Assembly (NCBI GenBank): GCA_016787295.1
Contig: JAEUUX010000291.1
Span: 1 to 64,000, forward strand
Reading direction: 5' to 3'
Length of the DNA stretch: 64,000 nucleotides
Source: Chitinophagales bacterium
GTDB taxonomy: Bacteria > Bacteroidota > Bacteroidia > Chitinophagales > UBA2359
Both the position numbers and the translations under genes were made by a program. Shown here piece by piece: positions 3,135-62,147 of the stretch (the first letter of the stretch is position 1; each line of letters starts with the position of its first letter). A model generated the notes under the pieces. The model had not been told where the DNA came from, searched no databases, and saw only the letters and a list, made by a program, of their open reading frames with translations.

Positions 3135-3354
3135 CAGTGTTTAAAAGTCGGATACTATTGCATTAGGCTTTTTGGGCGTTTCCCTGCGGGTCGGGCTGTT
3201 CTGGGCTTCGCTACCGCTTCGGTGCTTCGCAAGCTACGCACTGGCTAACGCCACCCGCCACATCCCTAACGCGCGCTTCGCCATTCGAACAAACTTATCA
3301 TATCCTTCCGAATAATAGCATTTTATTCCGACAAAATTTTAAAACAGACCAATA
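3135..3354 (+). repeat. MITE-like dispersed repeat, copy 1 (about 220 bp)
   Basis: The GC-rich core starts TTTGGGCGTTTCCCTGCGGG at 3171 and ends CGCGCTTCGCCATTCGAAC near 3290. A/T-rich arms flank it: left AGTGTTT at 3136, right CCGACAAAA to CCAATA near 3354. These align with the ends of copies 2 and 3. The left arm lacks about 12 bp relative to copy 2. A TA follows the right end, but the left end is preceded by CA, so this copy looks slightly decayed. Confidence 0.75.
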
Positions 3355-18570: not shown

Positions 18571-18657
18571 GGGGGATTAGAAATTAATAGAACATCGAAA
18601 TATAACATCACATCGAGTCGAAATTGTAGCAAATTACCAATGAAACAAAAAAATCCA

Positions 18658-18888
18658 TAGTGTTTCATTTTGGTTAAATAGTCTGATAATAATACATTGA
18701 TTTTTTTGGGCGTTTCCCTGCGGGTCGGGCTGCTGCGGGCTTCGCTTTGCTTGGTGCTGCGTTGCTCTCCGCACTGGCTAACGCCACCCTCCGCATCCCT
18801 AACGCGCTTCGCCATTCGAACAAAAATATCGTTATTTTTTACAGCAAAAACAGCTTTTTTCCGACAAAAAAGATAAAACAGAACAATA
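18658..18888 (+). repeat. MITE-like dispersed repeat, copy 2 (231 bp, intact)
   Basis: The left end is TAGTGTTTCATTTTGG. The GC-rich core starts at about 18710 (TTGGGCGTTTCCCTGCGGG), and the right end is ATAAAACAGAACAATA. The ends form an imperfect inverted repeat (TAGTGTT/TATTGTT, TTTT, GTCnGA in register). TA lies at both outer ends, compatible with a TA target. This copy gives the uninterrupted sequence against which the IS insertion in copy 3 can be read. Confidence 0.8.
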
Positions 18889-18916
18889 GTTAAGATTTTC
18901 GCATCAAAACTTCGCC

Positions 18917-29073: not shown

Positions 29074-31075
29074 GTTCTACCAAAATTTCGGAGTCTGGTG
29101 CCACATTAATAGGCACGGTTTCTTCTTCTACATTACCCAATTCTAAACCAAAATCTTCGACCGTCGACAGGCTGTAGGATTTGATGAAACGATAGGTTGT
29201 TACAACAAATTGGTTGAACGGACTCAGTTGGTTGTCTGCCGACACGCGCGTATTGAGGATAATGAATTTGAAATCGGCGGGCATACCATATTTACGCAAC
29301 GATGGATAGTGGCTTAGTTCGTCAACTTCGTCGTTGTTTATCATTTCGGTGACAATTTTTTCGAACATCAAATTGACTTTGTGTTCTACTTTGAAACCAA
29401 ATTTTAGGCGAACAAAAAAGCAGGTGCGGGGAATAATGGTGTCCACTGAATATTTCGTGCCGTATGGTTTATCGGTAATCTCAATATGCACAAACCAATA
29501 AATGTCGGCGCGTTTGGGTCTTTTTCGGAAAATAGAATAGATGATATTAGAATCTAAATGATCCTTGTCGTTTGCCATCGATAAGTAGACCAAATTGGTG
29601 GCTTCTTTGGGTACAGTTTCATCTTTTTGGAGGTCTTGCAACATTTCGATATATTCGCGCACGGGCAAAAATTCGGTATGTTTGTCACGCAAACGACGAG
29701 CCGAATAGAACACAAACATAGCTATAAAAATGATGGTGGCAATCATCAACGTAAACCAGCCGCCATGTGGAATTTTAATAACATTGGAGGCAAAGAACAT
29801 CAATTCTAAACAATAGAAAGTAAGCGCAAAACCAATAACAAAAGGGCGGGGATATTTTTTGATGACCAAATAATAGGTCAACACTGTGGTTGTCATCAAC
29901 ATATCCATCGTAATTGCCAAACCATACGCCGCTTCCATGCGGGACGATTCCCTAAAAATCAATACCACCGAAATACAACCAGCCAGCAAAAGCCAATTGA
30001 TAGCAGGCAAGTAGATTTGTCCGCGCGAATGACTGGGATAATTGACTTTGAGGTTCGCCCACAGTTTAAGTTTCATGGCTTCGTTAAACATCGTGAAAGT
30101 ACCACTAATCAAGGCTTGACTGGCGATGATAGCCGCACCTGATGCCAGCACAATACCATATGGCAAAAACCATTCGGGCATCATAGAATAGAACGGACTT
30201 TGGCTTGCACTTGTGAAAGTTTGTCCTTCTATGTGGGTAAGCATCCAAGCACCTTGTCCAAAATAGTTGAGCAAAAGGGCAATTTTAACAAATGACCAGC
30301 TCACACGGATATTGCCTTTTCCGCAGTGCCCCAAATCAGAATAGAGTGCTTCGGCACCAGTAGTACACAAAAATACCGCACCCAATATCCAAAATCCATT
30401 GCTGCTACTCAACAATTTGATAGCATACATCGGGTTGATGGCTACTAATACGCCAGGATATGCCATTAAATTGTAGGTTCCCAGTATTGCCAACATACTA
30501 AACCATATCAACATAATGGGTCCAAAAGCCCTGCCTACCACAGTCGTCCCAAATTGTTGTACGCCAAACAGCACTATCAATATCCCAATCACAATCGGGA
30601 CGGTATTCAGTTCGGGATTAAATGCCCTTAAACCTTCTACCGCAGATGAAATAGAAATAGGAGGCGTAATAAAACCGTCTGAAATTAGGGCTGAACAACC
30701 AATAATAGCAGGAAAAACGAGCCATTTGGCTTTATAACGACGTACCAAAGCATAGAGTGCAAAGATACCGCCTTCGCCGTTGTTATCGGCGTTTAGTGCC
30801 AAGAGGACATACTTAAAACTCGTGACTAAGGTTAGTGTCCAGAAGATACACGAAATACCACCCAAAACCAAATCTTTTGTGATGGTATGTCCTGTTCCAA
30901 TGGCTTTCATTACATACAAAGGCGATGTACCAATGTCGCCAAAGACAATACCGAGTGTAATTAATACACCCGCAGCGCTTAATACGTGAACATGTTCATG
31001 GTGATGGTCTATCACCCGAACTTGTGGTACGTCAGGGTTTGTAATACCACCCTGATGTTGATTTTCTGTTGACAT
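29066..31075 (-). CDS. kup: Low-affinity potassium transporter Kup
   Basis: An inner-membrane K+/H+ symporter of the KUP/HAK/KT family, 669 residues. About twelve transmembrane helices occupy residues 30-470. The family start ALGIVFGDIGTSPLYV appears here as TLGIVFGDIGTSPLYVMKA, followed by NADNNGEGGIFALYALV, SDGFITPPISI and TTGAEALYSDLGHCG. A cytoplasmic C-terminal domain of about 190 residues ends in an acidic tail. The 380-bp upstream region is long for a simple promoter. The GNAT gene is coupled downstream. Confidence 0.94.
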   Translation of the reverse strand: MSTENQHQGGITNPDVPQVRVIDHHHEHVHVLSAAGVLITLGIVFGDIGTSPLYVMKAIGTGHTITKDLVLGGISCIFWTLTLVTSFKYVLLALNADNNGEGGIFALYALVRRYKAKWLVFPAIIGCSALISDGFITPPISISSAVEGLRAFNPELNTVPIVIGILIVLFGVQQFGTTVVGRAFGPIMLIWFSMLAILGTYNLMAYPGVLVAINPMYAIKLLSSSNGFWILGAVFLCTTGAEALYSDLGHCGKGNIRVSWSFVKIALLLNYFGQGAWMLTHIEGQTFTSASQSPFYSMMPEWFLPYGIVLASGAAIIASQALISGTFTMFNEAMKLKLWANLKVNYPSHSRGQIYLPAINWLLLAGCISVVLIFRESSRMEAAYGLAITMDMLMTTTVLTYYLVIKKYPRPFVIGFALTFYCLELMFFASNVIKIPHGGWFTLMIATIIFIAMFVFYSARRLRDKHTEFLPVREYIEMLQDLQKDETVPKEATNLVYLSMANDKDHLDSNIIYSIFRKRPKRADIYWFVHIEITDKPYGTKYSVDTIIPRTCFFVRLKFGFKVEHKVNLMFEKIVTEMINNDEVDELSHYPSLRKYGMPADFKFIILNTRVSADNQLSPFNQFVVTTYRFIKSYSLSTVEDFGLELGNVEEETVPINVAPDSEILVERA

Positions 31076-31280
31076 ATTTCTAAGTATGCACTACCTATTT
31101 GTTCAGTTTTATTAGACTTTAGGTAGTTGTTAAAACAATAAAATAAGTGTGTTACGCAAAAACTCTTTTGTGCAACGTTATTAATAAATGTTGTTAGCAC
31201 AAATTTTGATAATCTGGTAATTTTTTTACTCCTAAAAAGGTCGTCAAAACCTTTGGTGTTGGGATATTTATTGAAAACAT

Positions 31281-32016: not shown

Positions 32017-32052
32017 TAGTGTTCCATTTTGGTTAAATAGTCCGATAATAAA
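32017..32052 (+). repeat. MITE-like repeat, copy 3, left part (split by the IS)
   Basis: It begins TAGTGTTCCATTTTGG and runs to GATAATAAA, where the IS starts. It matches the left 36 bp of copy 2 with few differences. The last six bases (AATAAA, 32047-32052) are the left target duplication. Confidence 0.85.
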
Positions 32053-32090
32053 CAACATGGCTGCCACGACTATGGGCTGTCAGCATACAT

Positions 32091-33491
32091 TTAGGCGGCA
32101 TTAATAAGCGTTTTAGGCATAAAATTGTGGATAGCCTCGGCATTAAAAATAGGATTCTGGTCATTTTGGGTATCATTTAAAAAAGATTTGAGTGTAAAAC
32201 GGGCGTTGAAAATGATTTTCAAGTCGGTAATGCCAAGTTTAGGCATTCCGTACTGTTGTCGGTAGTATGGGATAATTATCTTAGCAATAAGGCACATCAT
32301 AAAAGCTAGATTGACAAAATTGGTGACATTGTTTTGCTTATAGTTCTTGAAATCTGCGAAACCAAAGTGTTGTTTAGCGTCTCTAAAATCAAACTCTATT
32401 TGATACCGCAAATGATAATAATCCCATAATTGGCTATGGGTTAGGTTAAGGTCGTTGGAACAGAAAATGAGGATGGATGTTTTGTTGGTCGTTGTGTCTG
32501 TGGTACGAACAATAAGGATATTAAGGATTATCTGTCCGAAGATACCTTTCATATATCCTTCGAACTGGAAGTGTTCTGTTTTGATATTGTCTTGAATAGT
32601 GGTATTTTTGAGGGTGTGGGCAGGTGGGTTTTCATTGTCGATTCTCTTGCCATAGACTTTTGGTCTGCCATGGGTGTAGGGTTGTTGTTCGGTGTATTGA
32701 AAAGGGAAACAGATGACAGTATTTCGCTTAACTTTGGAGATAAGATATAGCCCCTCTGATAGGGCTAATTCCATATATTGCAGGGTGGCATATGCACTAT
32801 CTCCGACGATATGGTGCAATTGTATGTTGGGTAGTTGAGCCTTGATTTGGGTCATTACATCGACAAACAAGCGCTTAAAGGTGCGAAAACTTGCCGTTTC
32901 TAGGGTGTTTTCGGCGGACTTAGGTTTATTTTTAGCACCTTTGGGATGCCCTTTGGGTTTGGGCTTTGGTTGGGGATTGTTTGCAGATGTAGTGCTTGTA
33001 CCTTTTTTTGCCTTGCCTTTGGCTTGCGACTTCTTGGCTTTTATGGCTGCCGTGCGTGCCTTGTCATGAGGGGTGCGTATGATTTGCAACAAACCCATAA
33101 AATACGACTTGCCAGCATCAATGCTAATCAGACTACAACCGAAAAAGCCTATACCCCGCTGAACAATACCTATGATGGAGTTGTAAAAACGGTCTATGCC
33201 ATATGTACTATAGCGACTCTTAGCTTGCATTGTTTCATCAAACCCTAAGATGTAACGTTCTGATACCTCATAGGAAAACTGAGCAAAAAGTGCCACAAAA
33301 GCATTAATCCAAGTGTAGTTCCCTGATAAAAACCGAAACCATGACCGCTCACTTAGCCAACTATGACGACTCAGACTGCGTGTTGTGACCATGTATAGAA
33401 TACTGAAATAGCTGCTGATTATAGCCGTTAGCACCTCGCTATTGCTCACACCTAGTGCAGTGCCCAAGGTATTTCCTATTTGTTGTAACAT
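32091..33491 (-). CDS. IS4-family DDE transposase
   Basis: This transposase catalyses cut-and-paste of the element. In the 466-residue product the DDE triad is Asp85 (ILGFDETMQAK), Asp231 (IVGDSAYAT) and Glu366. The C-terminal YHLRYQIEFDFRDAK fits the IS4 signature Y-x2-R-x3-E-x6-K exactly. A K/P-rich insertion near residues 145-190 (KGHPKGAKNKPK) lies between the first two Asp residues, as in some IS4 relatives. ATG 33491 (MLQQIGNT) is chosen because a TACCTTTG -7 element lies at 33528-33521; the frame stays open to 33590, inside the right inverted repeat. No frameshift or missing residue was seen. Confidence 0.9.
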   Translation of the reverse strand: MLQQIGNTLGTALGVSNSEVLTAIISSYFSILYMVTTRSLSRHSWLSERSWFRFLSGNYTWINAFVALFAQFSYEVSERYILGFDETMQAKSRYSTYGIDRFYNSIIGIVQRGIGFFGCSLISIDAGKSYFMGLLQIIRTPHDKARTAAIKAKKSQAKGKAKKGTSTTSANNPQPKPKPKGHPKGAKNKPKSAENTLETASFRTFKRLFVDVMTQIKAQLPNIQLHHIVGDSAYATLQYMELALSEGLYLISKVKRNTVICFPFQYTEQQPYTHGRPKVYGKRIDNENPPAHTLKNTTIQDNIKTEHFQFEGYMKGIFGQIILNILIVRTTDTTTNKTSILIFCSNDLNLTHSQLWDYYHLRYQIEFDFRDAKQHFGFADFKNYKQNNVTNFVNLAFMMCLIAKIIIPYYRQQYGMPKLGITDLKIIFNARFTLKSFLNDTQNDQNPIFNAEAIHNFMPKTLINAA

Positions 33492-33520
33492 AATTAGACT
33501 ACTTGATTTTGTTTTTGCCG

Positions 33521-33528
33521 CAAAGGTA
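33521..33528 (-). promoter_or_regulatory. -7 element of the transposase gene inside the IS
   Basis: TACCTTTG on the minus strand, 29 bp before the ATG at 33491, lies within the IS ends. Confidence 0.5.
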
Positions 33529-33594
33529 CGAATTTTATCAGGTATCCACATTTTTATCCCCCCTTTAAAATAGGCAGATTTGGCAGCCATGTTG

Positions 33595-33795
33595 AATAAA
33601 GCATTGATTTATTTGGGCGTTTCCCTGCGGGTCGGGCTGCTGCGGGCTTCGCTTCGCTTGGTGCTGCGTTGCTCTCCGCACTGGCTAACGCCACCCTCCG
33701 CATCCCTAACGCGCTTCGCCATTCAAACAAAAATATCGTTATTTTTTTACGGCAAATACAGCTTTTTCCGACAAAATAGATAAAACAGAACACTA
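33595..33795 (+). repeat. MITE-like repeat, copy 3, right part (split by the IS)
   Basis: It starts with the right target duplication AATAAA (33595-33600). The GC-rich core follows (TTTGGGCGTTTCCCTGCGGG near 33612), and the copy ends GAACACTA at 33795. The reverse complement of the end, TAGTGTTC, equals the left end of this copy over 8 of 8 bases. The remaining 33796-33962 up to rfbA is A/T-rich with nothing else recognisable. Confidence 0.85.
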
Positions 33796-62035: not shown

Positions 62036-62147
62036 TTTGGGCGTTTCCCCGTTGGGGTCGTGCTGTTCTGGGCTTCGCTTCGCTGCGGTGCTTCGCAAGC
62101 TACGCACTGGCTAACGCCACCCGCCACATCACTAACGCAGCTTCGCG
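62036..62147 (+). repeat. Dispersed repeat, copy 4 (core only, diverged)
   Basis: TTTGGGCGTTTCCCC at 62036 through CACTAACGCAGCTTCGC near 62147 matches the GC-rich core of copies 1-3. The A/T-rich inverted-repeat arms are absent. It most resembles copy 1 in the middle (GCTGTTCTGGGCTTCGCT). It lies between the smc promoter and the smc start codon, antisense to smc. Confidence 0.75.

Follow-up and report, generated by a model that had tools for sequence, protein, structure and literature searches.

Correia elements, NEMIS and ERIC are MITEs with a structured or RNA-producing core. The MITEs of Coxiella have been linked to the evolution of small RNAs (PMC5896051). The element described here resembles all of these in being small, nonautonomous and intergenic, with imperfect terminal repeats and a structured core, but its ends read TGTTC...GAACA, its target duplication is a 4-bp NTAN, and its core also stands alone across the phylum, in phages and in plasmids. 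Compared by description rather than by sequence, it shares with a Porphyromonas gingivalis MITE a Bacteroidota host and internal cargo, which in that case is a minisatellite (PMC4596501). Dispersed intergenic palindromes are further represented by the GTAG and CGTC families of REPs, of which CGTC repeats have been reported in Bacteroidetes among other phyla (PMC3733652). REPs are hairpins of 20-40 bp tagged GTAG or CGTC, whereas here the core has three stems, measures 80-100 nt and comes with no Y1 transposase.

The core itself is akin to Flavo-1 (Rfam RF01705), which Weinberg et al. 2010 listed as a candidate RNA (PMC2864571). In F. psychrophilum, Flavo-1 has sense and antisense matches, many of them outside transcribed regions, and some copies coincide with transcribed 5' regions (PMC9723704). 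This published work gives no function for Flavo-1 (PMC2864571, PMC9723704), and a literature search for papers naming the core sequence returned none. The likeness lies in the phylum, in strand-specific internal loops and in a long stem, our P1, which is what the Rfam model describes. The difference is that Rfam models P1 only, as an sRNA gene, with P0 and P2 absent from the model.

A probable MITE with a folded core as cargo

The window, that is, the whole 64,000-nucleotide stretch of DNA that was analysed, lies in contig C252 of the host genome G000, a 5.42-Mb draft in 296 contigs. Judging by kinship labels and the trpB gene of genome G262, the host probably belongs to the same class as Flavobacterium. 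We read the feature at 18661-18885 as a MITE with a Flavo-1-like folded core as cargo, and put the probability of this reading at roughly 0.7 (Table 1). The first-pass annotation had drawn a 231-bp element at 18658-18888; the element is real, with limits that had to be corrected and 4-bp duplications outside them.

Table 1. Positions of the element and its parts, of the other copies in the window, and of the IS within copy 3.
Feature	Position	Strand	Remarks
Copy 2, MITE	18661-18885	+	ends TGTTC...GAACA; about 225 bases, no gene of its own
Left target duplication ATAG	18657-18660	.	read from sequence; NTAN statistics
Left arm of MITE	18661-18707	+	TGTTTCATTTTGGTTAAATAGTCTGA..., inner repeat GTCTGA
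Flavo-1-like core, type A	18708-18805	+	by scaffold rules
Core P0, 5' strand GCGTT	18710-18714	+	
Core P0, 3' strand AACGC	18801-18805	+	
Core P2, CCC / GGG	18716-18718 / 18722-18724	+	
Core GGGCT	18727-18731	+	
Core N = G	18732	+	
Core N' = C	18794	+	
Core CCC	18797-18799	+	
3' extension GCTTCGCCATTCGAAC	18806-18821	+	goes with the core in host-genome copies, with or without arms
Right arm	18822-18885	+	terminates ...CCGACAAAAAAGATAAAACAGAACA, inverted relative of the left end
Right target duplication ATAG	18886-18889	.	
Copy 1, diverged MITE	3138-3351	+	core 3174-3272
Copy 3, MITE split by IS	32020-33792	+	core 33615-33712
Copy 4, core only	62039-62138	+	without MITE arms
IS inside copy 3	32053-33594	-	TIR CAACATGGCTGCCA; 6-bp duplication AATAAA read directly
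DDE transposase of the IS, 499 aa	32091-33590	-	closest to IS701/IS4 models, below their cut-offs

Aligned copies share the left end TGTTCCATTTTGGTTAAATAGTCCGATAAT and the right end ...TTCCGACAAAATAGATAAAATAGAACA, and both ends, read inward, follow TGTTCYATTTT-N9-GTCSGA, which makes them bipartite imperfect inverted repeats. The termini TGTTC...GAACA are common to 31 copies with two readable ends. An exact 4-bp NTAN duplication, seen in the forms CTAC, GTAG, ATAG, CTAA and TTAG, flanks 14 of these 31 (45%), compared with 16% (at most 39%) in 1000 shuffles that exchanged flanks among the copies. On the same 31 copies, no exact duplication of 2, 3 or 5-9 bp was seen. The median length is 223 bp, with no internal transposase gene. 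Three marks of a MITE are present: shared terminal inverted repeats, a target-site duplication and a short element without a transposase gene. The earlier description of a TA-targeting element with related ends and TA on the outside was right about the ends; the duplication, however, is the 4-bp NTAN, of which TA is only the centre.

Within the window, the core sequence GGGCGTTTCCCTGCGGG has three exact matches, at 3174, 18708 and 33615, and one match with 3 mismatches, at 62039, against a chance expectation of 0.06 matches; at a fifth match, 58761, the rest of the core is missing. The claim that four copies share a core holds in that the core matches at all four, but copy 4 is armless and the coordinates needed correction. 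Positions 32017 and 33795 of the first-pass annotation are the two ends of one element divided by an IS.

The core as a separate module

The host genome holds 132 occurrences of a 22-nt core pattern and 218 of the pattern GTCGGGCTN{40,70}ATCCCTAACGC (102 forward, 116 reverse), the reversed control of the latter giving zero matches there. Among copies whose flanks could both be read, 56 have both arms and at least 23 have neither under a strict test; the two-armed copies read in the host genome number at least 56. The armless copies start and stop at the same points, from a T-rich junction, as GGGCGTT...AACGCGCTTCGCCATTCGAAC.

The arms and the core have diverged to different extents. Across 14 two-armed copies, chosen by the 22-nt pattern alone, left arms differ between pairs by 24% on average and right arms by 25%, whereas cores differ by 8.6%, mostly in one stem tip. 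Divergence in the core is about a third of that in the arms, so that the core is constrained or homogenised apart from its carrier; selection, gene conversion or both may keep the copies similar, a similarity that is seen here only as divergence below that of the arms.

The GC-rich core is an independent module: armless copies exist in this genome, in other Bacteroidota, on plasmids and in phages. Of the two components, MITE and Flavo-1-like module, the module is the interesting one. Cores of type A, as in the window, and of type C, mostly armless, are both found inside related MITE ends (L069, L155). The cargo would be an older folded element of the Flavo-1 kind, dispersed independently, which MITE ends at some point came to flank and which transposition then multiplied. 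Many armless cores of the host genome share, to the right of the core, a second tail, AACTTTTNTACC...GCTTTTTTGCGGCGGCTAACGCC (L024, L039, L040, L051, L327, L331 and L333), another composite form.

Fold and covariation of the core

The scaffold runs in a fixed order: GGGCGTT (5' strand of P0), hairpin P2, GTCGGGCT, N, stem P1 with its variable tip, N', and ATCCCTAACGC (3' strand of P0). It describes a predicted three-stem structure, in which an outer stem GCGTT/AACGC would enclose hairpin P2 and the long stem P1 with its interchangeable tip. Taken on its own, the window's core has a folding energy like that of shuffled sequence (z -0.2, -0.3), so that the structural case is a comparative one.

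N and N' complement each other in 65 of the 68 distinct cores taken from other Bacteroidota (shuffle maximum 49). The P1 arms in these cores pair with their own partner at 16.2 versus 11.1 with that of another copy, and those of P2 at 16.0 versus 8.5. Counted over the structure, 101 cells are double-changed versus 33.5 in shuffles, and one-sided changes number only 2. Viral copies behave alike, with N and N' pairing in 61 of 67 and all four Watson-Crick types represented (shuffle maximum 34). Cores of the host genome follow the scaffold in having G/C 60 times, T/A 3 times and G/T twice at N/N'. The covariance analysis suggested in the first-pass annotation bears out, through the relatives, its claim of a self-complementary core. 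Such strong covariation of N/N' and of the hairpins indicates, from comparison of sequences, that the core has been selected and kept as a single-strand fold, and its working form is probably a folded strand. The scarcity of G-U intermediates, a count without a matched RNA control, is suggestive only.

Assigning the strand from conserved mismatches led to a contradiction, A.G favouring the Rfam strand and G.T the other, and was abandoned. An integron attC-like fold was rejected on inspection, the order of the conserved boxes being unsuitable. The tips vary widely. In L471, L475 and L479, the P1 tip consists of long nested hairpins with a shared loop, TCTCCCTYACCGCCCATCGAG, as if another structured element had been inserted. 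The tip hairpin AACAAAAACTACGGCTAAAAAGCCTTGTTTTT recurs downstream of trpB in L240, L241, L242, L243, L245, L246 and L253; the tips of other relatives at that site are unrelated to it, which would fit an exchange of tips as modules.

Relatives and Rfam Flavo-1

The scaffold pattern was found in 24 of 296 sampled Bacteroidota genomes, the host included, in line with the statement of the first-pass annotation that similar cores are widespread in the phylum. Of 20 Bacteroidota loci found by this pattern, 11 are matched by RF01705, on the strand opposite to that given in the first-pass annotation. Against the copies of the host genome, RF01705 gave no match above its gathering score, nor at permissive thresholds. 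Part of the core family is therefore already catalogued as Flavo-1, and Rfam misses the copies of the host genome.

A covariance model (R1) built from other genomes only, with the host left out, detects type C cores of the host genome (E about 5e-9) and, among 197 genomes, gives matches in 25 further ones. R1 misses the type A cores of the window, which are longer and reach only 12.6 bits. What ties type A to the wider family is the exact scaffold, together with type C intermediates and the cores of two phage contigs, L452 and L470, which have the same P1 motif (GTCGGGCTGCTACGGGCT...CGCATCCCTAACGC).

Phages and plasmids

The exact pattern occurs in 82 IMG/VR contigs, most of which have the full scaffold but a branched P1. 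Twelve of 14 tested phage and plasmid sources fall short of the Flavo-1 threshold, and two reach it. When the core was compared by BLAST with cultured phages, a single weak match (E 0.8) emerged, which on reading has the full scaffold. Terminase genes are frequent neighbours in these contigs. In seven contigs (L389, L394, L399, L418, L426, L428 and L437), a putative large terminase gene, assigned from its sequence by inspection and with no PHROG or Pfam match, is followed by the start of the element at a distance of about 40 nt or less; in seven others a small terminase gene, PHROG 2538/51, is no more than about 140 nt away (L396, L407, L410, L434, L435, L438 and L440). We regard this association as a lead from few lineages.

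Two ssDNA microviruses, MG945358.1 and contig L454, carry the full scaffold between genes; L454 encodes a Phage_F capsid, a replication and a pilot protein. In both microviruses (L454, 4342-4420; L484, 6085-6238) the scaffold runs on the other strand from the genes. Looking for further microviruses by their replication protein yielded none. Conjugative plasmids of Bacteroides, such as p5482, have a conserved full scaffold about 0.8 kb before an ardC-like gene (p5482: L485, about 31003-31085), and Rfam does not flag the p5482 copy.

Flavo-1, catalogued since 2010 without a function, thus becomes one branch of a larger three-stem family common to chromosomes, conjugative plasmids, tailed phages and ssDNA phages, with interchangeable tips and MITE-borne amplification. 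One plasmid or one phage offers a small genetic system in which the role of the core can be probed.

Possible roles of the core

A plausible reading, held at less than even odds, is that the core is an RNA, Rfam's Flavo-1, made from the strand opposite to that of the first-pass annotation, its copies serving as sRNAs or UTR elements that the MITE merely spreads. It draws on the RF01705 matches at 11 of 20 loci, on the internal loops, which are G.A-rich on the Rfam strand (C/T mismatches on the + strand, 77 vs 2), and on the copies at transcribed 5' regions of F. psychrophilum. The same study, however, has matches in both senses, many untranscribed (PMC9723704), and compensation is almost entirely two-sided, with one-sided G-U changes nearly absent (2 versus 101 double changes). 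An orientation rule relative to genes had to be rejected, the orientation being mixed: with co-directional neighbours in other Bacteroidota, 29 cores are sense and 19 antisense. In addition, the element is missing or decayed at one site in close species. In some 20 Flavobacterium species, the stretch downstream of trpB holds the element with quite different tips, only a remnant of it, or nothing of it (a clean absence in L247 and L248). Such presence, decay and absence make the core dispensable there, and probably no single site requires it. In the host genome, cores avoid the regions between divergent genes (4 of 47 and 1 of 23). No neighbour gene is shared among chromosomes, the largest clusters being translations of the repeats themselves.

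The core could instead be a signal of single-stranded or cruciform DNA used by Bacteroidota phages, plasmids and chromosomes, for example in complementary-strand priming, loading of an ssDNA protein, or packaging. We consider this possible but somewhat doubtful. The full scaffold in the two ssDNA microviruses, in the same strand relation to the genes, speaks for it, as do the scaffolds ahead of the ardC-like gene of p5482 and beside the terminase genes of tailed phages, and the Watson-Crick-only compensation. Against it, the microviruses are only two, few lineages account for the phage cases, tailed phages have double-stranded DNA, no binding protein is known, and the listed chromosomal positions, on inspection, have no consistent relation of orientation to replication. 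A DNA or cruciform form may be somewhat more likely than a trans-acting RNA. A more speculative extension is that the scaffold is a folded ssDNA signal used Bacteroidota-wide on phages, conjugative plasmids and chromosomes, 'Flavo-1 RNA' being its chromosomal subset, amplified here as the cargo of a MITE.

That the core is a REP of the RAYT/IS200 type, moved by a Y1 tyrosine transposase, is very improbable. It is palindromic, intergenic and high in copy number, but no Y1_Tnp gene was found in the host genome, which already contradicts a RAYT/Y1 association there, or in seven core-positive genomes (G049, G194, G274, G087, G140, G258 and G346). Many core-negative genomes do have Y1_Tnp, and the MITE arms show duplications of the DDE type. 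Least credible is a repeat made of the core only, with coincidental arms, a reading that the first-pass annotation tied to copies never sharing the arms and for which the armless copies speak, but which is already refuted by both arms, with matched target duplications, being common to 56 copies; these also confirm the nonautonomous inverted-repeat element that had been proposed.

Mobility and the IS in copy 3

As its ends and duplication suggest, the MITE would be moved in trans by a DDE-type transposase, with TGTTCYATTTT-N9-GTCSGA at either end as its recognition sequence and NTAN as its target. This enzyme and its class are put forward as predictions, since the searches turned up no autonomous partner that has these ends. 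The first-pass annotation had suggested looking for a transposase gene flanked by the same ends; searches of the 296-contig draft assembly with left- and right-end patterns found none between MITE ends, and yielded MITEs, solo ends and one core-less mini-element. A single end-pattern match in a relative (G377) looks like chance and was discarded. The IS in copy 3 is complete, at about 1.5 kb; it was rejected as the partner of the MITE, since its ends and its 6-bp duplication differ from those of the MITE.

Contigs C9, C40, C52, C130, C225, C263 and C264 of the host genome have termini inside these repeats, which thus break the draft assembly. Broken MITE arms are joined to a different repeat (AATACAGTNTTCGGATTTTGTAAAATGTTGACAGTCGAATAATTGCGGTCACAAAAAACG) at two places, L019 and L055. 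The core-less mini-element, at about 1420-1527 of L383, is some 100 bp long and has the same ends (CTAG, TGTTCCATTTTAATTATTTTGTTGGAA...GAATGGAACA).
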